Below are positions 2,978-29,131 of a stretch of DNA of 31,250 nt, one piece after another. The notes beneath the pieces were generated by a model. That model had not been told where the DNA came from. It searched no databases and was given only the letters and a program-made list of their open reading frames with translations. Positions within the stretch are counted from its first letter, which is position 1. Each line of letters begins with the position of its first letter. Source of the DNA: a virus; the IMG/VR virus record IMGVR_UViG_3300005264_000138, positions 1 to 31,250 of that record; one strand, 5' to 3'. The translations under genes and the position numbers were made by a program.

Positions 2978-3649
2978 CTATATTAATGTTAGGGTTTCGG
3001 GGTCTGCAATATTCTGTGCTACATGTTGGCGGAATTGACCATCGAAAATTAATTGGGAATTTGGGATAGATGCGTTGTAGGTTGTGTCGGTTATGGCATC
3101 GGTGGAAATGTAGATTTTTGTGTTTTTTACACCTTTTGTCGTGGTTGTACCACTATTATGCCCATTAATGATTTTTACACCATCAAATGTTTGCAATTCA
3201 TTAAACACACAAATTAAGCGTTGGTTGGTTATGATGTTGCTTGCATAACCATTTATATTACTACCTATTTTTGACAATGAAATATCGAATGCTTTATTAG
3301 GTGTAAATGATGAGAATGTATTAGTTGCATAACAAGTGATATTCGTCGAAAGAATGTTTAAGATTTGCTCTTGGTAGTACAATTCAAATGCCCTAATATC
3401 GAGATATTGGCTATCACCCCAATTATCAGCAATATCCAAAATAACGCTTTTAGCCTCATAAACATCGGCAGAGGCAAACAATGTCTCCCCAGACTCAACC
3501 ACCCACCGCCAAGCATCCGCCCCAATTTGAACAGTCCTAAAAACCCCAATTTCCCCCAATAATGGACTACGTTTTTTAAAATTAAACCCTGCACCTTTAA
3601 CAACATAATCAATTATCGGTATTACCCCATCCCCACTTTTAAAAACCAC
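2978..3649 (-). CDS. C-terminal part of a frame-split tail fibre protein with a discoidin-like domain
   Basis: Up to 223 residues counted from a GTG at 3649, with no ribosome site of its own. Residues 1-60 (VFKSGDGVIPIIDYVVKGAG, later GADAWRWVVESGE) look like a phage fibre domain. Residues 66-223 form a discoidin (F5/8 type C)-like module, with AKSVILDIADNWG at the start, KAFDISLSKIG in the middle and GVKNTKIYISTD near the end. Related modules occur in the proteins at 6742 and 12283. Deleting one copy of the 7-bp duplication at 3653-3666 joins this frame to the one starting at 3854 (…QYDHIGH-DVVFKSGD…), giving a 289-residue protein. So this is probably the downstream half of one gene, not a separate gene. 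Confidence 0.6.
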   Translation of the reverse strand: MVFKSGDGVIPIIDYVVKGAGFNFKKRSPLLGEIGVFRTVQIGADAWRWVVESGETLFASADVYEAKSVILDIADNWGDSQYLDIRAFELYYQEQILNILSTNITCYATNTFSSFTPNKAFDISLSKIGSNINGYASNIITNQRLICVFNELQTFDGVKIINGHNSGTTTTKGVKNTKIYISTDAITDTTYNASIPNSQLIFDGQFRQHVAQNIADPETLTLI

Positions 3650-6741: not shown

Positions 6742-9700
6742 TTATAAATCCAGATATGCCGTATCCTGAATTTGCTGGATTGGTATTGTTAAATTATCTT
6801 CCGTTATGGTTACATTTTCTAATCTAATATATTGGTAATTAATATGGTGGATTACAATATCGACATTAAAATCGGCACCCGGATAAGTTATATTTGCAAA
6901 AAAATCTCCGGAAGAGTTTTCAACCCCTGCAATTTCGGTTTCGTCGGAAACTTTATATACACGAATTTCGGTATTATCGTGGATGCCGGTAAGGGTTAGG
7001 GTTATTTCGTTTTGGTCGATTGGGTATAAATTTGCTTGTTGTGCAGTTAATGTAGTTGTGGTTTCTACAAGTAACATACTCATGGAAGTTTGTGTGCCGG
7101 TGGCGGTAAGTTGGAATTTAAATTTAATTCCCTCTTCTGTATCTCCTGTTATAGCTGTCCAGTTGGATGCTGTTCTAACATCTAACCAAGTGCCGTTCCA
7201 TGAACCACCTTTTAATTGATATTGAAAAGCCAGGGAAACATTTCCCCACTCATCATTTCCCAGATTACTACTTCCGGTTGCCGCCGTAAAATTTCCAGTA
7301 AAGCCGGTATGGCCAGTCATAAAATAGCTTTGTTCAAATTCTATTACATCACCATTTACCATATCCAAATCACCATCTTTATAAAAAAGAGGGTTTCCGG
7401 CTGTAATGGTAGTTTCATTAATGGTGGCAGATGGTGTAATAAATACCAGGCCGATAGCTCCTGTGGTATCGGATTTAAAACAATCGTGGATATTGTGGCC
7501 ATACGATGCTGCAAGTAAATCTTCCCAGCCATCGGATGCACTTACATTGCCTGAACCACCATGCACACCTTTAAATAAAATACCATCATTGCCTGTTAAT
7601 TGGATTTCGGAATTATATGGCATGGAGCAATTTTGAACTAATACATTTTTTGCGGTTACAGGTGCAACTGTTACGTTTCCACTTGTTCCACCTATTCCAT
7701 CCTTGCCCCATAATCTTGCCAGATCTATATTAGAACAAAGCCCGGTCAAATAAACCAATCTTTCTCCATCAACTCCAAAACTTACTTTATTATCAATTTG
7801 CCCCATACATCGTACTTTTATATTAATACAATCGGTAATTTGCATCATATAATTACCTTGTGTGGCATTTCCAATAAATTCAAGGCCGATAAATTCACAA
7901 TCATTTGAAAACGCTGACAATAAAATACCATTTTTCTCTTGTGTCTGTTCAATTCCTGCTTGGGAACAACACATTTTAAAATTTTTTACTTTTACTTTTG
8001 GTGTACCATTTAGATTAAACATACCATCAAACTCTGCATGGTCGCTACCCACCGCTACATTATTTTCAAAAACAACATCCTGGGATCGTGAAAAGTAGTA
8101 ACAATATATAGAGTTAGTACTCCATTTAGCCCCTATATGAAGTGTACTTATACAACCTTTAACCTCAACTCCGATATTGGTTTCTGCACCTATCGGGCAT
8201 CTTTCAGATTCACACATGATCCCCAAACAATCTATAATAGAGGTACCTGAAATTAAATCTAAACCTCGAAAAGCGTATCTTGTGGAAGCTGCATGTCCTA
8301 TTGGATCGGGGCATCTTACGCAATTTTTAAATGTTGTTTTAGAACCTGCGTTATTACTGCCTATATCCACATTACAGCCTACATATTCAGCATCGTATTT
8401 ACTTGCATTTGTACTACCAAACCAAGCAGAACCTACATTGCAAACTTTTAAATCAACTTCTCCGGCGTTTGTTGTAATTAATTGGAAACGCTCGGTTTCA
8501 TTGTTTCCGGTAGCCGTGTCTGACATAAAATGTACGTTTGGTATTCTAATATTGCAACCGGAAGGTGGTTTAAAACCTCCTGTTGCACCTGCCGAACTTC
8601 CGAAAGTTAAAGATGTAGATTGATATTGGTTTTCAAAGACGAAACCGCCTACTCCGTGATGAAATCCGCTTATATAACTTGTACCATTTGCCACGCAATT
8701 ACCAAACTCTTGGTAAATTCCTGCTTCTTTTATATCTCCTAACGCATTATCTATGTTTGCCGTAAATGATGTTTGTAAATCTGGTCCAGCATTATCTACT
8801 AATTTTCGTACAAAAACTGCATCATTGTCTGCTAAAGTTCCTGTTAAAAATCTTACAACAATAGAAACAGACATGCTTAGTGCAACATCTTGGTCATCAG
8901 CAACATCCGAACCAGTATGTTCAGGTAAATCACCATTAAATATAAGTGTGCTATTAGGAACAGCATTTCCATAAGCTGTATCTGTAATGGTATCAGTTGA
9001 AACATATATTTTAGTAGCTTTCACACCGACATCGGTTCTTTTACCAGTGTTATGTGAATTATTAATCCTTATGCCCTTAATATCTTGGGCTGTATTAAAA
9101 ACAACAATAAGTCTAAGGTTTGTTACTTCGTCATTCCCCCCCAACCATTGTTCCTCCCACCAATCACCTGTTTTAAGTGTGCTTGTATCAAAAGCATGGT
9201 CGGCATTAAATCCCACCTCATCATATTCTGACGTGGCATGAGTTGTAAAATCCGATGTTGATAATTCTATTACCTCATCATCTAAACCGATAAATTCAAT
9301 TTGCCGAACACCCATATAAGAACCGTACCCGTAATTATCTTCAAAATCGAATACAACACTTTTAATACCACTTAAACTTCCGCCACCAGCACCAGCTTCA
9401 ACACTTACAATTCTCCCCATAACTTTTTCATCTGATGCTTTATAAATCCAATCATCTTTGACTGGATATTCACCATCTATGTTATCAAGAATTAACTTCC
9501 TGCCTGTTTCAACTTGTACCATGGGGATTACATCGGGATTTTCAGAAAAGGTGATTACTTGGGAGTCTGTGCCGTCTGTGGTGCCTATGGTGTGCCAATC
9601 GCCTATGGCTTGTAACTTTCCTTGTCCGTTTACGTTTATTTCCTGGAGGTTATTGCCTTTAAACCAGATGATATTGCCGGATGTTATGTTTTCACCGTCT

Positions 9701-9870
9701 ATTTTTAGGATGCCGTTGTTTATGTCCACCTGGTCAATAATTATGGATGGGGTTTGGGTGCAGGTTATTATTGCACCGTTATTGATTGTAAGGTTGTCGC
9801 CTGTTACCATGGAGCCGGCTGTTATGGCTTCTTCTAAGGTCATGTTTGTGGTTGCGGTGTAGTTTGGCAT
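6742..9870 (-). CDS. Large tail spike protein: beta-helix with a discoidin-like module
   Basis: 1042 residues, ATG at 9870 after an AAAGGAT ribosome site. Residues 1-130 are beta-helix-like (ITAGSMVTGDNLTINNGAII, and later strands with hydrophobic ladders). Residues 169-330 form a discoidin-like module (KSVVFDFEDNYG, HAFDTSTLKTGDWW, GVKATKIYVSTD). Residues about 380-770 have repeated short strands with Cys and Asn ladders (VKVCNVGSAWF, VEVKGCISTLHIG, VKVKNFKMCC), typical of a right-handed parallel beta-helix of the kind used by polysaccharide-degrading spikes. The C-terminal 200 residues contain Ig-like beta-sandwich segments. It is likely the main receptor-binding or depolymerase spike. No catalytic pair can be assigned by eye. 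Confidence 0.7.
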   Translation of the reverse strand: MPNYTATTNMTLEEAITAGSMVTGDNLTINNGAIITCTQTPSIIIDQVDINNGILKIDGENITSGNIIWFKGNNLQEINVNGQGKLQAIGDWHTIGTTDGTDSQVITFSENPDVIPMVQVETGRKLILDNIDGEYPVKDDWIYKASDEKVMGRIVSVEAGAGGGSLSGIKSVVFDFEDNYGYGSYMGVRQIEFIGLDDEVIELSTSDFTTHATSEYDEVGFNADHAFDTSTLKTGDWWEEQWLGGNDEVTNLRLIVVFNTAQDIKGIRINNSHNTGKRTDVGVKATKIYVSTDTITDTAYGNAVPNSTLIFNGDLPEHTGSDVADDQDVALSMSVSIVVRFLTGTLADNDAVFVRKLVDNAGPDLQTSFTANIDNALGDIKEAGIYQEFGNCVANGTSYISGFHHGVGGFVFENQYQSTSLTFGSSAGATGGFKPPSGCNIRIPNVHFMSDTATGNNETERFQLITTNAGEVDLKVCNVGSAWFGSTNASKYDAEYVGCNVDIGSNNAGSKTTFKNCVRCPDPIGHAASTRYAFRGLDLISGTSIIDCLGIMCESERCPIGAETNIGVEVKGCISTLHIGAKWSTNSIYCYYFSRSQDVVFENNVAVGSDHAEFDGMFNLNGTPKVKVKNFKMCCSQAGIEQTQEKNGILLSAFSNDCEFIGLEFIGNATQGNYMMQITDCINIKVRCMGQIDNKVSFGVDGERLVYLTGLCSNIDLARLWGKDGIGGTSGNVTVAPVTAKNVLVQNCSMPYNSEIQLTGNDGILFKGVHGGSGNVSASDGWEDLLAASYGHNIHDCFKSDTTGAIGLVFITPSATINETTITAGNPLFYKDGDLDMVNGDVIEFEQSYFMTGHTGFTGNFTAATGSSNLGNDEWGNVSLAFQYQLKGGSWNGTWLDVRTASNWTAITGDTEEGIKFKFQLTATGTQTSMSMLLVETTTTLTAQQANLYPIDQNEITLTLTGIHDNTEIRVYKVSDETEIAGVENSSGDFFANITYPGADFNVDIVIHHINYQYIRLENVTITEDNLTIPIQQIQDTAYLDL

Positions 9871-9886
9871 TTAATTATCCTTTAAA

Positions 9887-12283
9887 TCATGTCATACTTA
9901 ACAATATTGAATGATAAGCTGAGGGATCTTCGTGGGGATATGCAGCAGTAGGCGAATCTTCAGGGATTCGACCTGGAAAGCTTGCTATGCTTTGTACTGT
10001 ATTCCCCTCCACATCTATAAACTCTATTTGCTCTTCTCTGCGAGATGTATATTCGTAATTGTCAAGTGGCGCCGACCTCATAAAAGTAGTCGCGATATTG
10101 CTACCACATGCTACTATAGAATCCGGCCAGTTATAACGTAGGATTTGCCTCAGAAACTTAAACTTTCTACGACCTTCTACATTTACGTTATGACGATACT
10201 TATCTGGCATTTGGAATACTTTTATATATCCTCTTTTGACGTAGCCTCTTTTGTACCCATTTGAATCTTCACCTGAAGAGGTTGAAGAATAGTCCATATA
10301 AAGATAGAATATTTCATCATTTATACATGCTAATTTATTTGATTGGGATTGTTCATGAAGGTGGGATATGTCTGGATGGGGGTCTAACTCTGGGAGGGTG
10401 TATTGATCGGGAGGTGCTTGTAAATTAGATATGTCCCAAACGCTGATTCGTGCTGTCAATCTGAAAGAATCGATTTGAGGGGGAAGTACAGAAAATAACT
10501 CTGACACGAAAAGGTAGTTATTATATACGCATATGCCGTTAGGGACTCCTATAAAGTTACCTTGTGATGTAATATCTCTGTAATAATAATCGTAACCGGT
10601 GTAAGTCTCATGGTGCTTAAATTGATTAGACAGTATTGTAGTTTTACCTGATCGTACATCGGTGTACCCTACGTGTCCAACACCACCGGCATAATTACCA
10701 GTAACTACGCCCCAATAGAAAAAGATGTAATCCTCGTAACATATAAATCTATTTACCGGAAATTTAATCTGATAATGATAATCCCAATGAGCAAGGGCGG
10801 GCATTACTATTGTACGAACTTTTTTCTGATTCTCCCACAACGTCAACTCTGTATTGATTATCTGCGAACCTTGCCCTCCATCTCTCAACCAAAACTTATC
10901 AAAAGACCGCCAGATGCCGTCTCTGGAAGCAGATAATGCATAAAGCGTGCGATTGAGGCCTCCGAAAGAGGACGTAGATTCGAGAGGTTCATTTGCGTAT
11001 ATTTCGGAGGGTATTCTCCAAGATTCGTCATGCCTTGATATTACCATACAATAAGTCAGCTCATCAGGGTTGTCTTGTCGCCATTGTATAGGTCGTAAGA
11101 AGTTTTGAAAATCCATAAAAGAAAATAACATCTTATCACAAGATTGAGGGTTACTCTGAAAGCCTATTAGTTTGGGGGTTTCCCAACTCCTGTCAGGGAA
11201 AGACACTACAACGATATCACCCTCTTTAAAAATACTTGCAGGACAACTCATGTAATCAATAGGTACGCTTTCCAGTAACTTCTCATCTGTTTTGATTTCG
11301 TACCATGTTCCCCCGACCAGCCTGCTTATCCATTTATAGCCTTTGTTTTTGGATAGTTTAGGACCCTGCGAGTCATTATCTAATACGTATGTGCCCTTGT
11401 TCGTGTCGATTGTTAGAACTGCATGCCCCACCAGCTCACCATCATCTTTTACTTTAGCACAAACTGTTACTTTTAAAGCACTTGCAGAAACACCCATCTC
11501 AATCAATCTATCTGCCTTGGTCAACGCAAAATCTTCGCAATCTCCGGAATATGAATCTGGTGGGTTTGTATCTTCAGTTCCTTCAGGTAGTCTCTCTGGA
11601 ATTATTTTCCAGTTCTCTTCCACATCAGCCGAGTAGGTGTATTCGTTATTTACCTGATTATTTACATCAATTATTTTCTTCCAGTCGGCTGATGTGGTAC
11701 TGACAGTGGTGTCTCCGGTGTTGGTAACAATGGGATGCCCTGCATAGTTGGAAGCAAAACCTATCCAGCCTGCCAGCGGATCAACTTCTTCGCCTTGCTC
11801 CATAACTTCCTGAATAGGAACGTCATTTATATTTAGAAACATACGCGCACTGGTTGCGGCAAATATATTTATATCACAAGTGTCGTCTTCTAAGTTTACA
11901 GATATTACTTCCCCTATTCGATATGTCGGTTGCCATTTTTGCCATCCGGGTAATAAAATAAGATTACGCAAAACAGTATAATCACTTAACCTTTTGCTTT
12001 TACGAAGTTGACCTAACCCCTCTTTTCCACCCGGCATAATAATAATTTCTTCATTATTATTTAATTCAATTGTGCCTACTTTTCGCCCATCTTTTGGCAT
12101 GTTTCTTTCTAAACCGATTGTTAAATCTGCACACCAGACATCATCTCGTAAATATGATTTTTCCTCCTCTTCTCTTTCCGCCCCCGACATGGTGGCATCA
12201 TATTCTATTTCATCTGCATATAATAATTTAATATTATATTGTCCCGGATTGGTACCTTTTGATAAAATCAATGCTTGACCCAT
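9887..12283 (-). CDS. Tail tip protein with an embedded LapG/BTLCP-type cysteine protease domain
   Basis: 798 residues; the ATG at 12283 overlaps the upstream stop by one base (TAATG). Residues 1-165 look like a baseplate or tip scaffold. Residues about 207-310 match the bacterial transglutaminase-like cysteine protease (BTLCP, LapG-type) pattern: VNNEYTYSAD, then SGDCEDFALTKADRLIEMGV with catalytic Cys249, GHAVLTID with His287, and YVLDND with Asp302. Residues 370-798 form a beta-rich, propeller-like region (repeated short strands with Trp/Tyr, e.g. YEDYIFFYWGVVTG). LapG proteases cut surface adhesins at the cell envelope, whereas tail tips usually carry NlpC/P60 or lysozyme domains at this point. 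The domain may help penetrate the envelope or strip host adhesins. Confidence 0.65.
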   Translation of the reverse strand: MGQALILSKGTNPGQYNIKLLYADEIEYDATMSGAEREEEEKSYLRDDVWCADLTIGLERNMPKDGRKVGTIELNNNEEIIIMPGGKEGLGQLRKSKRLSDYTVLRNLILLPGWQKWQPTYRIGEVISVNLEDDTCDINIFAATSARMFLNINDVPIQEVMEQGEEVDPLAGWIGFASNYAGHPIVTNTGDTTVSTTSADWKKIIDVNNQVNNEYTYSADVEENWKIIPERLPEGTEDTNPPDSYSGDCEDFALTKADRLIEMGVSASALKVTVCAKVKDDGELVGHAVLTIDTNKGTYVLDNDSQGPKLSKNKGYKWISRLVGGTWYEIKTDEKLLESVPIDYMSCPASIFKEGDIVVVSFPDRSWETPKLIGFQSNPQSCDKMLFSFMDFQNFLRPIQWRQDNPDELTYCMVISRHDESWRIPSEIYANEPLESTSSFGGLNRTLYALSASRDGIWRSFDKFWLRDGGQGSQIINTELTLWENQKKVRTIVMPALAHWDYHYQIKFPVNRFICYEDYIFFYWGVVTGNYAGGVGHVGYTDVRSGKTTILSNQFKHHETYTGYDYYYRDITSQGNFIGVPNGICVYNNYLFVSELFSVLPPQIDSFRLTARISVWDISNLQAPPDQYTLPELDPHPDISHLHEQSQSNKLACINDEIFYLYMDYSSTSSGEDSNGYKRGYVKRGYIKVFQMPDKYRHNVNVEGRRKFKFLRQILRYNWPDSIVACGSNIATTFMRSAPLDNYEYTSRREEQIEFIDVEGNTVQSIASFPGRIPEDSPTAAYPHEDPSAYHSILLSMT

Positions 12284-14526
12284 TACTCTTTGATCTCCAT
12301 TCTTTGTGAAGAGGTGTCTATTGTATAGGTAATGTTATTAACATTCATGGAAGTATCATCAAAAAAAGCAATATCACCGACCTGCAAAAACAGATTAACA
12401 CTGCATCGTACATGACGTTTACCCTGAGCATCTACCTTGATATATGTAACGCCTTCCAAATTTACATTTTTACCTACGATTAGATTGTCTTGTTTATCAC
12501 CGGTCACAATTAATGATTTGGAATTGTGACCCTTATGTTTTTGAACATCCCGGAAAGCTACCGTGAAAAGTTCTGAATAATTATCACCTATATACATTCT
12601 AACAATTAAAGAACCTGCTAATCTGTATAGTATTTCGTTGAACAACTCTATGCCAGGGATAACTGCACTGAAAAACGATTTATCACCGGCAGACATTTGG
12701 GCAGAAAAAGATTGCATGGGAAGTATTATATTATCAGTGCCGTTTTCTGTTCCTGTTAGTATTAACTGAAACCATTTTTTTAAGTGGTGGTTGTTTTCCG
12801 GCAAGTTCCATACTTTACTTGTCTGGTTTGATTTAAGTGCAATGTGTTTTGTTGGAATAAAGGCTGCTAAAAAATCAGGGTATTCGGCATATCCCCCGAA
12901 TGGTAATATGTTGATAGAATGGGTGCCCATGTAACTTATCATGGCAGAACCTATCCCCCTGATAGAAATTACTGCGGGTGCATCGCAATAAGTTTTAACC
13001 TCATCTCCGATATACGTTTCTACTTGTTGTGGAGTGATTTTAAAGGTAGAAACCGGTATTATATTGTTACTTGGGAGCAATGGCGTAGATATCGGGATAT
13101 GGGATCTGTTGTAAGCTCCGGAAGGGCGTGGTTCCAGTCGTAGATTAGATATTAAGAAAAGGCTATCTAATTCAGATTGATATGCAGTATTATCAACCTC
13201 TTCTAATGTGCCATATATTTTAATATTACCAAAACCTTGCGGTTGAGAGCTTGAGGAGATGTTCAAAGAGTTGATTATTCTAATTTCATCAAATTGCATC
13301 ATCTCATCAGGAATAAGGATAATACGAACGCCCGCCTCATCGTCATTGGAGTGGTATTCTCTTTCGCGCGCGTCTCCAGTCGTCATCGTTTGAACATCGA
13401 AAGCATATATAGCCGCGTAATCAAAATGCTCATGATTTGTACTTAAAGCAGTTGCGTTATATTGGGTAATATACAGCTCCTCACCTTGATAAAAGAATGC
13501 AATCTCTCGAACACATTTTGAATGCTCCAACCACCCATCTGCTCTATCGAGAATATCAATAACGATTCTACTGGCATTGATAGTGGTGGGTTTCAAACAA
13601 GGTGCAATATTATAGTTATTCTTTTCAACGGAGCTTTCAAAAAAACTATTTTGGTATAGATAATACACCGAAGAAACTGACCCCTGATACGATGTACTGG
13701 TGGTATTTGTCATGGAAAGTTTAATAGAAACACTTTCCACTGAGGATTTAAAGAGGGCAATTGCTGCAAAGGTCAACGCAACATCAAAATTAATTACAAT
13801 CCTTTGCCTATAATCTGATGAACTTGTCCAGCTTGTCGCTCTATCCATATCAGTCAAATATGAAATATCAGTACCCGGGTGGCTTACAAGTACTTCGTAA
13901 TCAAGGGTAGAAAGATCTATAAAAGAACCATCTGGATTTAAAAAGAAAAGATTGCCTATACTTAGATTTGTAGTTGAACACGACTCTATATCAAAAACCA
14001 CACTTTTAGCAGTGGTGGTATCATATTCAATAAGTGTTATATCTTCCGGTTCTTCTCCGGTGGTGGTGGAATGTTGTAAAAAACAGCCATCAAAAACAAG
14101 AATAGAATCGTACTCCATGTAGCTGTAATCTGTCGGATACTCCATATCTGCAAGATCTACTTGGGAAAAGTATATCTTGCAATTTTTAACGCCTCTATCA
14201 TCCTCGCTACCGTAATAATAATTTTCAATTCTAAAAAATTTGATATCTATAGGCGTGTTAAAGGTTATGGTGACCCTTTGCGGACCTTCGCCGTTACTCA
14301 TCCATGCGGTATAATTCGCGGTTCCTGTTTTAGCAAGGGAGGTATCGAATATTTTTTCAGGGCTACGGCTTGATGAGTATTGGGATGTGGCTACAGCATC
14401 AAAATCAGATAAAGAGAGAGGAATAACTTCCCTGTTTATATCCATGAATTCTACGGCTCTCAAAGCGTAATAATAATCATGGCCGTAGTTTGTGTCAAAG
14501 TCGAATATCACACTTTTCGTTAGCAT
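12283..14526 (-). CDS. Tail tip/hub-like protein with three discoidin-like modules
   Basis: 747 residues from the ATG at 14526. Residues 1-168, about 173-325 and about 318-475 are three successive discoidin-like modules. Each begins with a KSV(I/V)FD-type strand; the first and third carry the fullest matches (KIFDTSLAKTG, GVKNCKIYFS; GFGNIKIYGTLEE). Residues 476-747 look like a baseplate hub or distal tail domain: WFQLILTGTENGTDNIILPM, then a FFSAVIPG-type strand and KSLIVTGDKQDN. This tip protein therefore combines a conserved hub domain with a stack of carbohydrate- or surface-binding modules. Module 2 is the most divergent. Confidence 0.6.
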   Translation of the reverse strand: MLTKSVIFDFDTNYGHDYYYALRAVEFMDINREVIPLSLSDFDAVATSQYSSSRSPEKIFDTSLAKTGTANYTAWMSNGEGPQRVTITFNTPIDIKFFRIENYYYGSEDDRGVKNCKIYFSQVDLADMEYPTDYSYMEYDSILVFDGCFLQHSTTTGEEPEDITLIEYDTTTAKSVVFDIESCSTTNLSIGNLFFLNPDGSFIDLSTLDYEVLVSHPGTDISYLTDMDRATSWTSSSDYRQRIVINFDVALTFAAIALFKSSVESVSIKLSMTNTTSTSYQGSVSSVYYLYQNSFFESSVEKNNYNIAPCLKPTTINASRIVIDILDRADGWLEHSKCVREIAFFYQGEELYITQYNATALSTNHEHFDYAAIYAFDVQTMTTGDAREREYHSNDDEAGVRIILIPDEMMQFDEIRIINSLNISSSSQPQGFGNIKIYGTLEEVDNTAYQSELDSLFLISNLRLEPRPSGAYNRSHIPISTPLLPSNNIIPVSTFKITPQQVETYIGDEVKTYCDAPAVISIRGIGSAMISYMGTHSINILPFGGYAEYPDFLAAFIPTKHIALKSNQTSKVWNLPENNHHLKKWFQLILTGTENGTDNIILPMQSFSAQMSAGDKSFFSAVIPGIELFNEILYRLAGSLIVRMYIGDNYSELFTVAFRDVQKHKGHNSKSLIVTGDKQDNLIVGKNVNLEGVTYIKVDAQGKRHVRCSVNLFLQVGDIAFFDDTSMNVNNITYTIDTSSQRMEIKE

Positions 14527-14532
14527 TTTTAC

Positions 14533-14979
14533 CTACCCGTCAAAACTAATAATACCGCTTGCTGACCACACGATGGTGTAATCTACTCCTACAACAGTAA
14601 CATCTTGAGCCACTCCGCTACTATTTTCATCTAATGCTATTTTCGCAATAATAGGTTGAACAACTCCATCTACTGTTTCATCAATATAAACTACTGCAAA
14701 TTGAAATGTGTTAGTTAAAGATGTCCAAACAATATCATGGGCATCCCACTTGGTGTCATATGCGGTATTGGACAACGCTAAACCCGTGACGGCTTTACCA
14801 CCTCCGGTATATCCACCACCTGCAATTTCATTTATCATATCACCCCAAACTTGTTCACCGTCAATATCTCCCGGATTTTCACTATGAAGTGAGATTTTTA
14901 TATTGGTATTTTCTAAATTAATGATAGATTTTGCCATCCTTGTAACCATGGCCGCTGGTATATACATCGACGAACCCAT
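14533..14979 (-). CDS. Tail-region structural protein, paralogue of the C-terminal half of the HTH chimera at 26095
   Basis: 148 residues. The ATG at 14979 (MGSSMYIPAAMV) is chosen because AAGGAG lies 6 bases upstream; an ATG at 14997 would place that site inside the gene. Key stretches are NIKISLHSENPGD, VWGDMINEIAGGGYTGGG, AHDIVW and YTIVWSASGI. This pattern is common in small phage virion proteins. About 40% of residues match the C-terminal half of the protein at 26095-26808. The gene lies between a small tail protein and the three-module tip protein, so a tail-completion or tip role is likely. Confidence 0.6.
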   Translation of the reverse strand: MGSSMYIPAAMVTRMAKSIINLENTNIKISLHSENPGDIDGEQVWGDMINEIAGGGYTGGGKAVTGLALSNTAYDTKWDAHDIVWTSLTNTFQFAVVYIDETVDGVVQPIIAKIALDENSSGVAQDVTVVGVDYTIVWSASGIISFDG

Positions 14980-14989
14980 AAAACTCTCC

Positions 14990-15343
14990 TTATTCAATAA
15001 TTAAAATCGTGCATTGATAACCACTTTCAGTTTGTGTAATATTGGTAATAGATGCTTGGAAAACTCCTAAACGAGTGGAAATATTAACTATGCCATAGTT
15101 AAACATTAACTCTCTTACAATAAACGCTTTTTCCATTGCTTTGTGTTGTATTATTATATTGATTATTAAATCTGACGAGGTGATACCACAATCGACCAGG
15201 ACAGATTTATTATCTAATGTTTTAACCCGACTTCCTCTTCTGGTCATATTATAAATTGTCTGCATGGAATCGGGTGTCATATCGTCTTGTTTTAATACGA
15301 CAAATCCATTTAAATCTGCTTCGATTGCAGTAATACTTATCAT
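14990..15343 (-). CDS. Small tail protein following the tape measure
   Basis: 117 residues; the ATG at 15343 has an AAAGG site. The fold looks alpha/beta: ITAIEADLNGFVVLKQDD, then a Met/Arg segment (MQTIYNMTRRGSRVKTLDNK), and a beta-rich C-terminus (LGVFQASITNITQTESGYQC). Position directly after the tape measure corresponds to the tail-tip-initiating gene (lambda M/L-like), but sequence similarity cannot be judged by eye. Confidence 0.55.
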   Translation of the reverse strand: MISITAIEADLNGFVVLKQDDMTPDSMQTIYNMTRRGSRVKTLDNKSVLVDCGITSSDLIINIIIQHKAMEKAFIVRELMFNYGIVNISTRLGVFQASITNITQTESGYQCTILIIE

Positions 15344-24139: not shown

Positions 24140-25705
24140 TTATCCTTTTGTATTATCATTACTGGACTGGTTATTATTATTTTCAGGTTCGGCGTTTTGG
24201 TTTTGTTCCTGCTTAACTTCTGCAGGTGGGGTTAAACCTAACTCTTTTTCTTTTGTTTTTTCTCTGTTTCTCTGTTCAAGATTGGTTTCATAATCGCCCC
24301 CGCCACTTTCTGCTGTTACATTTGCAAGGGTAGAGATATTATGCTGTATGGCCAGAATATTGGCTTTAATTTCTTTTAATGGATCTACATTACCTTTTTT
24401 GGGAGGTATCCAGTTGGATTTTGTGTAGGCATGGCTTTGTTCGTACCAGTCCGGGGAATTTTTCGGCAGTTTTATCATACCCCTTAACCATGCTTCTTCT
24501 AATACCATACGCCAAACAGGTTGGCAGAATCCGTCTATCATCCATTTTTGATATACTGCATAAACTCGCCAGGCTTCCAAAAGTGCCGCACGGGCAGATG
24601 AGTAATTTGTTTTGGAAAAATCTTTTGCGATAACTTCGTAGGGCATGCCTATAGATGCACCAATTGCCCTTAAAATCCTTTCCACAAAAGAGTCGAAGGA
24701 ATTTGAAGGGCGATCCGATTTTAAGATATGGGGTTTTTCGTTTACGTTACCGTACAAAATAGCACCGGGAGCGGTTTCCTGATACTTATTTTTAGGGTCG
24801 TTTTCATTACTGGTATTAAATCCTTGTGCTACTCCCTGGGGATCTACTGTTTCTATAAAAACAGGGAAAGAAGATGCTATAATGGCACCTACCAGTTCAA
24901 AGTCTAAATAATCGTTTAAATCTTTGAAAAACTTCATGGCAGGTGCTAATATGGAAACGCCCCTTACCTGCTCTTCGGATTTTGTTACAAAGTTATGGAT
25001 TAAACCAGGGCGGTGTCCGGCATGGGCGTTGATTTTTGTAAAATTTTGAGAACTTAGATCATGGTCGATAAATCCGTCTTGGGGATTGGCTACCCAATAA
25101 GCTGTTGGTCTGCCGTGTTTGCCGTATTCTATGCCGTCCTTAATATTGTTTTTTTCGGTTAAATCTGATGGTGTGTAAACCCTTAGAGGATCCACCGATT
25201 GCAGTTTCATGGAAAATTTTTGATTTGGGTAGTTGGTCATAATGGGGATGCGGAAAAATTCCCCTTTTACCAACATGGTTCTTACAGCTACAAGGCAATT
25301 TTGCCAAAACTTTAAACGACCGGCCGCATCTGAATCATCTTGCCAAATATGCCAAGCCCATTCGGCTTGGGTTTGGAAATCCTTAACCTGGTCGGGAGTC
25401 CAGTTTAAGATTTTGGCGTTCGGCGTGGATTGAGGTAGTAATCCTGTGCCGACGCTATTTATGGCAATGGAATCAATGGCAGATGCGGCGTGGGGGTCAT
25501 TGGCGGTAAGGTCTTCTGCCCTGTCGGTTATTAACTGCCTTTCAGTTCTTCTGGTAAACTCTTCGGTGTTTCTGGATACAAACCAGTTGGATAAGGTGCC
25601 TCTTAAACCACCTGCCAAACGTGATACTTCAGAGGTGCCGTAAGGGTTTATATTGGATGGCTTTAGGGGTTGGTTATTTGGTCCGTATAGTATAGGAGTT
25701 GTCAT
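24140..25705 (-). CDS. Portal protein (lambda gpB family)
   Basis: 521 residues; the start at 25705 overlaps the stop of the gpW-like gene (ATGA). Recognised by SRLAGGLRGTLSNWFVSRNT near the N-terminus, ARDLTANDPHAASAID-like residues (AEDLTANDPHAASAIDSIA), IWQDDSDAAGRLKFWQNCL, the acidic FELVGAIIASSF segment, GAILYGNVNEKPHILKSDRP, and ASIGMPYEVIAKDFSKTNYS with the SARAALLEAW helix. The C-terminus (after 480) is a Gln/Asn-rich tail. It forms the dodecameric DNA channel and docks the terminase. Confidence 0.92.
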   Translation of the reverse strand: MTTPILYGPNNQPLKPSNINPYGTSEVSRLAGGLRGTLSNWFVSRNTEEFTRRTERQLITDRAEDLTANDPHAASAIDSIAINSVGTGLLPQSTPNAKILNWTPDQVKDFQTQAEWAWHIWQDDSDAAGRLKFWQNCLVAVRTMLVKGEFFRIPIMTNYPNQKFSMKLQSVDPLRVYTPSDLTEKNNIKDGIEYGKHGRPTAYWVANPQDGFIDHDLSSQNFTKINAHAGHRPGLIHNFVTKSEEQVRGVSILAPAMKFFKDLNDYLDFELVGAIIASSFPVFIETVDPQGVAQGFNTSNENDPKNKYQETAPGAILYGNVNEKPHILKSDRPSNSFDSFVERILRAIGASIGMPYEVIAKDFSKTNYSSARAALLEAWRVYAVYQKWMIDGFCQPVWRMVLEEAWLRGMIKLPKNSPDWYEQSHAYTKSNWIPPKKGNVDPLKEIKANILAIQHNISTLANVTAESGGGDYETNLEQRNREKTKEKELGLTPPAEVKQEQNQNAEPENNNNQSSNDNTKG

Positions 25706-25923
25706 CTGGCCACTACTCCTTGATTTATATACATTCGGTTACTACCGGTTGTTTTAGATTGTTGGGTTTCTAACCATTCAAGGTGGGTTCTGATTTCGGA
25801 AAGATCGGCACGGACAAGACTACGAGCGCCTATTGTATATTGTTGTCCTTTGGTAATGGCGTTAAGTGCGGCTTTCCACTCGGCAATTTCGTTATTAATT
25901 TCATCTAATGTGTAGAGTGCCAA
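25702..25923 (-). CDS. Head-tail joining protein gpW-like
   Basis: 73 residues. No ATG fits; the start is a TTG at 25923 preceded by an AGGGGGG ribosome site. The two-helix-plus-hairpin pattern of gpW is visible: YTLDEINNEIAEWKAALNAI, TKGQQYTIGARSLVRADLSE, then RTHLEWLETQQSKT. gpW plugs the portal and begins tail docking. It overlaps the portal start by 4 bases. Its ribosome site lies at the edge of a 12-bp hairpin (25930-25985), so its translation may be kept low. Confidence 0.75.
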   Translation of the reverse strand: MALYTLDEINNEIAEWKAALNAITKGQQYTIGARSLVRADLSEIRTHLEWLETQQSKTTGSNRMYINQGVVAR

Positions 25924-25929
25924 ATTGCC

Positions 25930-25985
25930 CCCCTGATATTAAAAAGTAAATATTATTATTTAATTAGGTTTTATAATATCAGGGG
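25930..25985. promoter_or_regulatory. 12-bp hairpin adjoining the gpW ribosome site
   Basis: CCCCTGATATTA (25930-25941) and TAATATCAGGGG (25974-25985) are perfect inverted repeats with a 32-base AT-rich loop. In the mRNA (minus strand) the 3' arm ends with the G-run that forms the Shine-Dalgarno of the TTG-start gpW gene. No U-run follows, so a terminator is unlikely. A translational brake is the best reading. Confidence 0.5.
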
Positions 25986-25998
25986 AATTGGAGAAAGT

Positions 25999-26043
25999 CA
26001 TGCACGCTATGCACACTATGCACACTATGCACACTATGCACAA
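25999..26043. repeat. Tandem array of five 9-bp ATGCAC-containing units
   Basis: Units catgcacgc, tatgcacac three times, then tatgcacaa, in register at 9-bp steps, each holding the hexamer ATGCAC. The array sits in the 170-bp gap between the HTH chimera gene and the gpW-like gene. It resembles a small iteron-like binding array. The same half-site appears in the palindrome at 26828-26843. Confidence 0.75.
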
Positions 26044-26094
26044 AATATTTTTATAATATAAAAAAAGTTTTGGGGATTTAATAAAGGCAAGTAA

Positions 26095-26808
26095 TCACAT
26101 CTGAAAATGAAATATACCTGCCGGAGACCATGCTATAGTATAATCATTATCTTCAATACAGCAATTCTGAGCTATGTCATTAACAACTTTCATAGTAAGT
26201 ATTGCTATAATCGGTTTAACAAGCCCATTAACCGTTTCATCTTGATAAATAACAGCATGTTTAAAAGTAGCGTTTAAATTCGGCCAAACGGCATCGTGAG
26301 CATTAAATATCATACAATTATCTTGGCTTTCCTGATATTCACATTTTTTCCCAGTCAATAAAATACCTCCGGCTGTGTAATTAGTACCTATCACTGATAT
26401 TTCATTTGTTAAATCACCCCAAACCATATCATCACCAATCACCTTAGGCATATCTGTATGTAAAGAAATTTTTATATTAGGGCTCATTAAATTAATATTC
26501 TTATGTGTTAACTTATACATTAAATTGGGAGCAATAACTTGGAAACCTATTTTTTTATCAGGAAAGATAATTTTTTTTTTAATAAATGCGATAACGTCAT
26601 TTATGGGGTAAGCTACTGTATTACCTATAATAAAGCTATTTTTAATACCGATGCCTTTACGATCTAAATTTTTATGATAAGATCCATTCAATATGCCTCC
26701 TGTTTTTGTTTTTAAGTCTGTCCTTAAAATCAAACCATAAGGATTATTTTTAATAATTCTTTCGCAAATAACATCTACGATGTTTTTTTGAATTAAATTT
26801 TCTGACAT
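26095..26808 (-). CDS. Chimera: HTH DNA-binding domain fused to a phage structural domain
   Basis: 237 residues; the ATG at 26808 has AAAGGAG 7 bases upstream. Residues 20-80 follow the AlpA/excisionase-like HTH pattern: RTDLKTKTGGILNGSYHKNL, DRKGIGIKNSFIIGNTVAYP, then DVIAFIKKK. Residues about 88-237 align with the tail-region protein at 14533-14979 (shared NIKISLH, VWGD..NEI, AHD.VW, DETV.G.V.PIIA, DYTI.WS..GI), about 40% identity. It lies between the large terminase and gpW, where a virion tail domain is not expected. A virion-sensing regulator or a morphogenesis timer are possible roles; a relic of recombination is the simpler alternative. ATGCAC-type sites bracket the gene. Confidence 0.65.
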   Translation of the reverse strand: MSENLIQKNIVDVICERIIKNNPYGLILRTDLKTKTGGILNGSYHKNLDRKGIGIKNSFIIGNTVAYPINDVIAFIKKKIIFPDKKIGFQVIAPNLMYKLTHKNINLMSPNIKISLHTDMPKVIGDDMVWGDLTNEISVIGTNYTAGGILLTGKKCEYQESQDNCMIFNAHDAVWPNLNATFKHAVIYQDETVNGLVKPIIAILTMKVVNDIAQNCCIEDNDYTIAWSPAGIFHFQM

Positions 26809-26827
26809 AATAAACTCCTTTGATAGT

Positions 26828-26843
26828 AGTGCATTAATGCACT
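26828..26843. promoter_or_regulatory. Perfect 16-bp palindrome upstream of the chimera gene
   Basis: AGTGCATTAATGCACT is a perfect palindrome 20 bp upstream of the chimera start. Each half contains ATGCAC, the same core as the tandem array downstream of the gene. It is a likely operator for autoregulation by the HTH domain or by the HTH protein encoded at 26927-27124. No clear promoter boxes can be assigned around it. Confidence 0.5.
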
Positions 26844-26926: not shown

Positions 26927-27124
26927 TTATAAATTACAATCTTTTTCCATTTTATTAAGAAAAAAATTTAAAACACTTAATCTTACTCTAATACCATGTT
27001 TTTTCCCAATTCTTAAAGCAGGCAAATCACCGGCATCAATTAAATTGTAAACATGACGACGGGAACAACTTAACTTGCTTTTTACCTGTTCTACATTTAA
27101 CAACCTGTCTTGTTTTAATGCCAT
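26927..27124 (-). CDS. Small HTH DNA-binding protein (excisionase/MerR-like, helix_turn_helix_17 type)
   Basis: 65 residues with an AAGGAAAAA ribosome site; it starts 10 bases after the terminase stop. The pattern LLNVEQVKSKLSCSRRHVYN, LIDAGDLPALRIGKKHGIRV is a classic winged HTH of excisionase/AlpA-like proteins. The C-terminal tail is basic. Such proteins bind DNA as excisionases, repressors or terminase partners. Located directly behind the large terminase and before a second HTH-carrying gene, it may control late genes or assist packaging. Which of these is unknown. Confidence 0.7.
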   Translation of the reverse strand: MALKQDRLLNVEQVKSKLSCSRRHVYNLIDAGDLPALRIGKKHGIRVRLSVLNFFLNKMEKDCNL

Positions 27125-27133
27125 AATTTTTCC

Positions 27134-29131
27134 TTATCGTTTGTTAAACCATGCAGGGCGTGACGCTGTGCGTGGTTTTGGTTGGGGTTCGGGTTTATTG
27201 TCGGTGGCCTCTTCGGGCATTTTTGAGCTTATAAAAGATAGCGACGGCATCCACTCGGGATCGGCACATGCGGCGGCTATATTTTCGCAATCCAATAAAT
27301 GATTATCTCGTCGGGTTTGAACCCATTCGGCTTTACCGGTTCGGTTCTTCTCTTTTCTTTCAGCTAAAATTTGCCTGGCGTAATCTATGCCTGTATCTGC
27401 ATTTAATGTTATATGCTGGGTCTCTTTTGTTGTACGATTTAATCGCCAATGCAACTGATCCTTAAATTTATTTACATCCAAGAAAAAGAGGGTGATACCT
27501 CCGGGGATCGGGCGGTTTCCCCGTGACATCTTATCTATTACCCTTGGAATTACTTTTTTTACTTGTGGGTGAGATGCCCCTTTTATGGCAAAAACCACAC
27601 CACGGCCGTTTTTCCTTACCCAATCATATACTTCCTCGGTTTTTGACCAGTCGTCATCCTTAGCTTTTCCGCCACCTGAATCGATACCGGCTCTCCAAAT
27701 TCCCATTTTTATTGCTGGGTCTTTGCCTTCGATTTGGTATCTGGTATTAAAAACAAGATTTTCTACATCTTTCCAAGTGGTAACATAGCCGTATTGGATT
27801 AAATGACTGTTTAAATGTTTATCCCATGCACGAATCACAAACCAGAACCCCCTTAATTGAACGTCTATTCCCATTGTAAGTGCCACAGCATCCTTTGGTA
27901 CTACACCAGCCGGCAAATGGTTTTTATGGGCAAGGATTTCGTTTTCATCTTTTTTTACAATCAAATCTTTCCATGGGAGGGCACAGTAGGAATTTAGGAA
28001 ATCTTGCATTTTTATGGGATCGTTTAAGCCAAGCAAGAAAGCAGATGCAATTTCACTTAGACTTACAAAATAGGATATCCATGAGGGGATATGAAAGCCT
28101 ATTGTGGCGGGTCGGAATGTTTCTAGATAGGTTTGCATGGAAATATTTTTCTCTCTTGTTTTCCAAGAGCCGTTTTGCACGGCAAGATTGCGGATATGGT
28201 CATCCCAAACACCTTTACAATGGGCACATTCGTACCATGCAAGGTTTTTATTTCGTATCTCTTTAGGATCGGCTTTTGAACGTCCTTCCCATTTTATTCC
28301 CTTAAAATCCATCAGTTGCGTTATGTTGCAAAGGGGGCATCTTACATGATAATCGAAAATAATATCTGCGTTATTTAACTCTTTCCAAACATTACCGGAT
28401 TCCACCGTGGGTGTGGAGATTTTAAAGAATTTGGATACCTGCCTAAAGGTTGTTAAGCGTTTATCAATTAATTCTATTACACCGGTTTCCTTTTGCCCCG
28501 GTTCAAAGCCGGGTTTATCAACTTCATCAGCGATAGCGTATTTTATGGGTTTATTTGCAAGGGATGCAACTGATCTGCCCCAGCCAAAATAGATAATCAT
28601 ATGTTGCAGGTTTATTCTTGAAGAGCTTTTATCTTTTTCCAAGCCTGTAAAGTAGGAACGTAGGCGTGGGGATGCTTTTATCATGGGCAACACTCTATCT
28701 TGGGAATTTTCTTTGGCTGTTTTTTCGTCCGGATAAACATACAATACAGGTCCGGGGCTTCTATCTATGCAGTAACCAACAAAATTATGCACAGCTTCTG
28801 ATCCACCTGTTTGTGGGGTTTTGCAAAGTGTTATTTCTCGTACAAATGGGAGAGCTGCGGCATCCATAATGCCGGTTAGATATGGGGTTACTTTGTTATG
28901 CCATAACCCTGGAAGAACCGACATTGTAAGAACACGGTGCTGTTCCGCCCACTTTGATACTTTTATGGGCTTGCGTTTTTTCATTACTTTTTTTTCAGCA
29001 CGGGAAAATTGAAATTGGAAATTTAATTTTCCGTTGTGCATAATGTTGGTAAGGTTCTCCCATAATTTGGAGCTGCACCAGTTGGGTTTTTTTTGAATGT
29101 GGTATTTTATCGGCTCTTTAAATAGTTGCAT
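27134..29131 (-). CDS. terL: Large terminase subunit (GpA family)
   Basis: 665 residues from the ATG at 29131. No clear ribosome site precedes this start, and the gene overlaps the upstream zinc-ribbon gene by 14 bases, so coupling is likely. The ATPase half has KWAEQHRVL, a deviant Walker A (KTPQTGGSEA, residues 104-113), Walker B (YAIADEVDKP, 199-208) and a coupling segment FKISTPT. A four-cysteine zinc knot (CPLC at 265-268, CAHC at 302-305) is a GpA hallmark. The nuclease half begins near 415 (LTMGIDVQLRGFWFVIRAW), followed by GIDSGGGKAKDD. It cuts and translocates DNA into the prohead. Confidence 0.93.
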   Translation of the reverse strand: MQLFKEPIKYHIQKKPNWCSSKLWENLTNIMHNGKLNFQFQFSRAEKKVMKKRKPIKVSKWAEQHRVLTMSVLPGLWHNKVTPYLTGIMDAAALPFVREITLCKTPQTGGSEAVHNFVGYCIDRSPGPVLYVYPDEKTAKENSQDRVLPMIKASPRLRSYFTGLEKDKSSSRINLQHMIIYFGWGRSVASLANKPIKYAIADEVDKPGFEPGQKETGVIELIDKRLTTFRQVSKFFKISTPTVESGNVWKELNNADIIFDYHVRCPLCNITQLMDFKGIKWEGRSKADPKEIRNKNLAWYECAHCKGVWDDHIRNLAVQNGSWKTREKNISMQTYLETFRPATIGFHIPSWISYFVSLSEIASAFLLGLNDPIKMQDFLNSYCALPWKDLIVKKDENEILAHKNHLPAGVVPKDAVALTMGIDVQLRGFWFVIRAWDKHLNSHLIQYGYVTTWKDVENLVFNTRYQIEGKDPAIKMGIWRAGIDSGGGKAKDDDWSKTEEVYDWVRKNGRGVVFAIKGASHPQVKKVIPRVIDKMSRGNRPIPGGITLFFLDVNKFKDQLHWRLNRTTKETQHITLNADTGIDYARQILAERKEKNRTGKAEWVQTRRDNHLLDCENIAAACADPEWMPSLSFISSKMPEEATDNKPEPQPKPRTASRPAWFNKR

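Follow-up and report, generated by a model that had tools for sequence, protein, structure and literature searches.

A phage gene that fuses a winged helix-turn-helix domain with a duplicate tail-tip protein

Introduction

Phage regulators and tail parts are normally separate proteins. In a 31,250-nucleotide stretch of viral DNA from a virus that infects sulfate-reducing bacteria (positions 1 to 31,250 of IMG/VR record IMGVR_UViG_3300005264_000138, hereafter the window), a gene placed between the terminase and the head-tail adaptor genes seemed to encode both in one chain. An earlier note, made from the letters of the sequence alone, had described the product as an AlpA/excisionase-like helix-turn-helix (HTH) regulator fused to a duplicate of a phage structural protein, and had left several outcomes: a DNA-binding protein carrying a virion domain and able to link assembly to transcription or packaging, a decoy or assembly regulator, or a neutral product of recombination. 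The locus raises the question of whether the two halves are what they seem and, if so, what such a protein might do. The features considered are collected in Table 1.

Table 1. Features of the window discussed in the text, with coordinates, strand and basis of assignment
Feature	Coordinates	Strand	Basis or remark
Fusion ORF, 237 aa, ATG start, stop included	26095..26808	-	sequence
N-terminal domain, winged HTH, residues 1-84	26557..26808	-	homologs and model
Probable flexible linker, residues 81-100	26509..26568	-	model pLDDT under 50
C-terminal domain, duplicate of tail-tip protein, phrog_644 family, residues 92-237	26098..26535	-	profile, alignment, structure, tree
Shine-Dalgarno AAGGAG of the fusion gene	26815..26820	-	sequence
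Perfect 16-bp palindrome AGTGCATTAATGCACT, candidate operator, between HTH_17 gene and fusion	26828..26843	.	the window's only one of at least 14 bp
Array of five 9-bp tandem units (plus strand ATGCACACT, minus strand TGTGCATAG)	26000..26044	.	hexamer in common with palindrome
Promoter-like hexamers (ATGACT, 17 nt, TATTAT), immediately past the array and directed toward the adaptor gene	25973..26001	-	promoter scan, weak
Inverted repeat; predicted RNA hairpin hiding the adaptor's Shine-Dalgarno	25930..25985	-	13-bp stem, -18.8 kcal/mol, z -4.1
Head-tail adaptor, opening the downstream structural operon	25702..25923	-	phrog_118, E 1.2e-11
Small HTH_17 protein between terminase and fusion; alternative binder of sites	26927..27124	-	PF12728, E 2.8e-9
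Terminase large subunit, gpA type	27134..29131	-	PF05876/PF20454
Stand-alone paralogue, a phrog_644 tail-tip protein encoded downstream of a large tail gene read as tape measure	14533..14997	-	profile, alignment, tree

The fusion gene and its product

The open reading frame is intact, has a good Shine-Dalgarno sequence, and was confirmed to encode a two-domain fusion of a DNA-binding domain with a second copy of a tail-tip protein. By sequence comparison the gene is apparently an in-frame joining of two complete proteins, and both halves were judged complete, since the N-half's relatives are entire proteins and almost all of the tail protein is retained in the C-half. An AlphaFold model of a single sequence was discarded (pLDDT 28) in favor of one built from an alignment of 29 sequences (mean pLDDT 76); fragments of the window protein served as anchors in the combined alignment of the relatives of both halves. 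The structure prediction that the earlier note had called for shows a winged HTH (residues 24-83), a low-confidence stretch (81-100) and a beta domain. The whole fusion protein had no match in Pfam at E values up to 1.

A winged HTH domain of excisionase type

The N-half was compared with 86 genomes of the family to which the nearest bacterial relative of the window's terminase belongs (a Desulfobacteraceae MAG, 77%). Small HTH proteins about 44-49% identical were recovered there, with E values down to 6e-15; these are complete proteins of ~75-120 residues, and the homology spans residues 16-86 of the fusion around an HTH core at about residues 24-83. There was no passing match for the N-half in Pfam or NCBIfam, including the Pfam families AlpA and HTH_17, and one of its relatives (L065) reached HTH_17 with an E value of 0.0011, below the cut-off. 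Several viral relatives adjoin integrase-like and primase-like genes, three of them (L105, L107 and L108) lying beside integrase-like genes, and one genomic relative precedes an AAA-type gene, all of these gene names being read by eye. No integrase was recognised within the window, which is incomplete.

In the AlphaFold model, the HTH block had pLDDT values of 81-90. It matched the RdfS excisionase with a Foldseek probability of 0.95, though an E value of only 0.56, and in the structural aligner it gave Z 6.3 to the same protein (rmsd 3.0, 55 residues), Z 6.4 to a DNA-bound MerR protein and Z 5.4 to the HTH of a packaging motor (7lw0). Foldseek, the structural aligner and the helix-strand pattern of the model thus all place the N-half in the excisionase/MerR winged-HTH fold, which bears out the first half of the earlier description. 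From this fold the domain very probably binds DNA, and its source appears to be one of the small winged-HTH regulators of excisionase/AlpA type that Desulfobacterota phages and integrating elements carry. The N-half shares its fold with excisionase/AlpA/MerR-type proteins (RdfS 8dgl; HTH_17), and its viral relatives stand beside integrase- and primase-like genes; it differs from these proteins in having no Pfam match of its own, in adjoining the terminase and in being joined to a tail domain.

A duplicated tail-tip domain

Homology to the tail protein begins at about residue 92 of the fusion. Pairwise alignment of the C-half with the product of 14533-14997 gave 56 identical residues of 146 (38%, E 2e-28), in agreement with the 40% or so first estimated by eye, and when all proteins of the window were compared with one another (E 9e-26) the two formed the sole related pair besides the discoidin-like tail domains. 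Profile search sustained the homology, since phrog_644 was matched independently by the fusion (E 4.7e-13) and by the 14533 protein (E 5.7e-11), and residues 99-237 of the fusion cover positions 15-144 of the 174 of the profile, which places it in the family. Single proteins and an alignment of the two copies, used as queries, found no relative in the viral contigs searched. As for the discoidin-like (DUF4457/F5_F8-like) domain, it is repeated in three tail proteins (2978-3649, 6742-9870 and 12283-14526), apparently twice in the last, with 35-38% identity among the main copies.

The family phrog_644 is widespread, occurring in actinophages, in the satellite phage MiniFlayer and in at least 50 viral contigs, as stand-alone proteins of ~140 residues; in annotated actinophages most of these lie near minor-tail or lysis genes. 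The 14533 copy and all 50 of the 50 viral relatives examined are stand-alone proteins, and none of the known members examined carries an HTH. The fusion is not a stand-alone gene of a tail or adsorption module; it has two domains and adjoins the terminase, and so it represents a phrog_644 domain in a new architecture and no ordinary member of the family. MiniFlayer, a satellite, attaches to the neck of its helper phage. Its gene 6 (L007:5186-5620) encodes the phrog_644-like protein, after the capsid gene and near a tail-fibre gene, and this protein is possibly part of the adsorption apparatus.

In a tree of 34 sequences, the C-half of the fusion and the 14533 protein were sisters with 100/99 support; they share a stem of 1.4 changes per column, from which the end branch of the fusion extends by 1.0 and that of the tail copy by 0.7. 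Such long end branches, together with the joint stem, suggest that the duplication is old and took place within the lineage of the window's phage or its close kin. Residues conserved across the family were kept at 20 of 33 positions in the fusion and at 22 of 33 in the tail copy.

When the phrog_644 profile (27 members) was compared with 177,635 PDB sequences, there was one leading match, the Bxb1 gp31 'tail wing arm' (PDB 9d93 chain Ra, E 0.018). The structural aligner ranked a T4 baseplate chain first (Z 8.9) and the same gp31 chain second, with Z 7.7, below the level of 8 that the tool takes as clear (rmsd 3.5, 99 aligned residues). A tail-tip role is likely for the phrog_644 domain because the sequence profile and the structural aligner, each marginal alone, name the same gp31 chain, and there is little doubt that the C-terminal domain folds as a tail-tip domain. 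For the 14533 product, earlier named 'structural protein', tail-tip protein is the better term.

A variable slot beside the terminase

The fusion gene and the neighboring HTH_17 gene form an AT-rich island of 24-32% G+C, against mostly 38-46% on either side, and the third-position G+C of the fusion is the lowest among the window's genes save that of this neighbor. Relatives whose terminases are 71-77% identical have other content between terminase and adaptor. In L064 and L003 the slot holds only a small protein of 66-69 residues (HTH-like by eye), and in L004 and L005 it adds a 134-residue protein (L004:5562-5966; L005:2762-3166) with a C-terminal ribbon-helix-helix domain, whose RHH_3 match in L004 (E 5.1e-5) is above the family cut-off. 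The slot is therefore variable and, where filled, holds DNA-binding proteins. The 134-residue protein resembles the fusion in occupying the same slot and in being two-part with a DNA-binding domain, whereas the domains themselves are unrelated. A search of defence families found no match for the fusion.

Elsewhere in the window, the tail-region protein encoded at 9887-12283 has at residues 171-331, within the chain, a transglutaminase-like cysteine peptidase domain (PF06035, E 1.4e-24), and a 64-bp tandem duplication at 803-945 (2.2 copies, 91% matches) overlaps the start of the 558-902 ORF. The product of 1317-1964 resembles by eye a PAS sensor domain, unusual for a phage, and had no match in Pfam.

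As for the distribution of the fusion, a search in other phages, proposed in the earlier note, found none. It was absent from 50,697 phage records, from 72,556 plasmid records, from 58 viral loci carrying either half and from ~800 Desulfobacterota genomes, drawn in three sets of 395, 389 and 86 that overlap in part, so that the fusion rests so far on one metagenomic contig, a weakness that the earlier note had foreseen. Among the titles and abstracts listed from the open-access literature there was no report of an HTH/tail-tip fusion. The two protein families are known and their combination is new among the collections searched; we class the product among the accessory DNA-binding proteins of phages, as one whose tail-tip domain is borrowed.

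Candidate sites on both sides of the gene

The flanking ATGCAC sites pointed out earlier are real, since 7 of the 24 copies of the hexamer in the window fall in 840 bp around the fusion gene, including those of a 16-bp perfect palindrome. This palindrome lies 7 bp upstream of the Shine-Dalgarno sequence of the fusion gene, and the probability that a gap as long and of like composition would contain one of 16 bp was 0.007. The hexamer of the palindrome is repeated in the array between the fusion and the adaptor gene, where five copies are spaced 9 bp apart. Palindrome and array, as candidate sites, would fit a regulator that acts at an operator of its own and at one further target; the HTH_17 neighbor could be an alternative binder.

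No palindrome of this kind was found upstream of the N-half's relatives. Tandem arrays with 11-bp units occur in the gap upstream of the adaptor in L003:2679-2727, L005:3378-3420 and L064:2910-2959, and only two such units in L004; they differ in sequence from the 9-bp array of the window, and since these relatives have no fusion, arrays do not need it. Moreover, the unit TGTGCATAG occurs exactly in an unrelated viral contig (L128:4873-4891), beside a primase-like gene and with more TGTGCA copies nearby, a placing such as replication iterons would have.

Promoter-like matches in the region were fewer than in shuffled sequence, and the promoter scan was set aside as evidence. The 5′ arm of the hairpin predicted in the adaptor leader contains the promoter-like TATTAT; should this act as a promoter, RNAs initiated at it would avoid the stem, unlike read-through transcripts, as has been described for T4 gene e (PMC3014915). 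Rfam gave no match. In the leaders of T4 genes e and soc, a hairpin hides the ribosome-binding site and a promoter lies inside one arm (PMC3014915), an arrangement that the adaptor leader resembles in both respects, although the hairpin of the window is a predicted one and concerns the adaptor gene, not the fusion.

Proposed function and alternatives

The homology of both halves upheld the reading of a DNA-binding protein that carries a virion domain. Its function is tentatively proposed, as a reading that may well prove right but falls short of an even chance, to be that of a self-regulated accessory regulator of the structural operon in the terminase/adaptor slot. The N-terminal domain would bind GTGCAT sites; at the palindrome before its own start codon it would limit its own expression, and at the array before the adaptor/portal operon it would control structural genes, while the tail-derived domain might offer a surface for oligomerisation or docking, perhaps for the tail-tip protein from which it was copied. 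Homology and full domain content of both halves, the sites and the variable slot were observed; DNA binding (from the fold), site choice, regulation and the role of the C-terminal domain we infer. The proposal is favored because the sole palindrome of at least 14 bp stands directly before the gene and has its hexamer in common with the array on the opposite side, because the same slot in L004 and L005 holds another DNA-binding protein, because tandem arrays likewise precede the adaptor in L003, L005 and L064, and because a long frame has stayed open at 30% G+C despite deep divergence, with 20 of 33 conserved positions kept. It is weakened by the single assembly, by the HTH_17 protein, by the arrays of relatives without the fusion and, in L128, the occurrence of the array unit next to a primase-like gene, and by the upstream regions of the N-half's relatives without palindrome and the paucity of promoter-like matches. 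A stronger version, in which the protein senses tail assembly through a tail-tip domain that docks on the tail-tip protein or competes for it, and the HTH switches the structural operon accordingly, is distinctly unlikely; its checkpoint logic is comparable to that of flagellar FlgM control.

The neutral recombination product contemplated at the outset, recent or drifting in a moron-like island, with weak or no expression and no selected function, is disfavored and considered unlikely. The single assembly, the extreme third-position composition, the variable accessory slot and the other duplicated tail domains of this phage would all suit it, but the copies are only 38% identical and a neutral frame that long at 30% G+C would gain stops, whereas the fusion has kept the core residues of the family almost as well as the tail copy, possesses a good ribosome-binding site and joins whole domains through a linker. 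It is rather unlikely that the array is instead a packaging or replication site at which HTH_17, possibly together with the fusion, plays the part of a terminase small subunit or of an initiator and not one in transcription. The adjoining gpA-type terminase, the relatives in which a small protein after the terminase is followed by an array, the N-domain's match to the packaging-motor HTH about as good as that to excisionase, and the array unit near a primase-like gene speak for such a site; yet the viral relatives of the N-half are excisionase-like and stand beside integrase- and primase-like genes, not terminase, and a palindrome directly before the ribosome-binding site resembles an operator. 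We also know of no terminase small subunit with a tail domain.

Two further roles start from the tail-tip domain itself. A decoy that poisons or redirects tail assembly, of its own phage or of a competitor, with the HTH serving mainly for autoregulation, would accord with a diverged copy of a structural protein in an AT-rich cargo island, and a phrog_644 protein is also found near a tail-fibre gene in the satellite MiniFlayer; it is quite improbable, as the fusion matched no defence family and no competitor with a closer tail protein was found, its nearest relative being the phage's own 14533 copy. That the C-terminal domain places the fusion in the tail tip, while the HTH is either a passenger or a binder of DNA inside the particle or following entry, is highly improbable: the tail-tip domain is complete, but the gene lies apart from the tail genes and next to the terminase, a normal copy is present at 14533, and there is no sign of incorporation.

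For the family, this work provisionally ties phrog_644, very common in phages and unnamed, to a tail-tip component in a solved structure. For phage regulation, a fusion that has kept conserved residues, lying upstream of a structural operon and flanked by matching candidate sites, would be a simple test case for the feedback of assembly status into expression.
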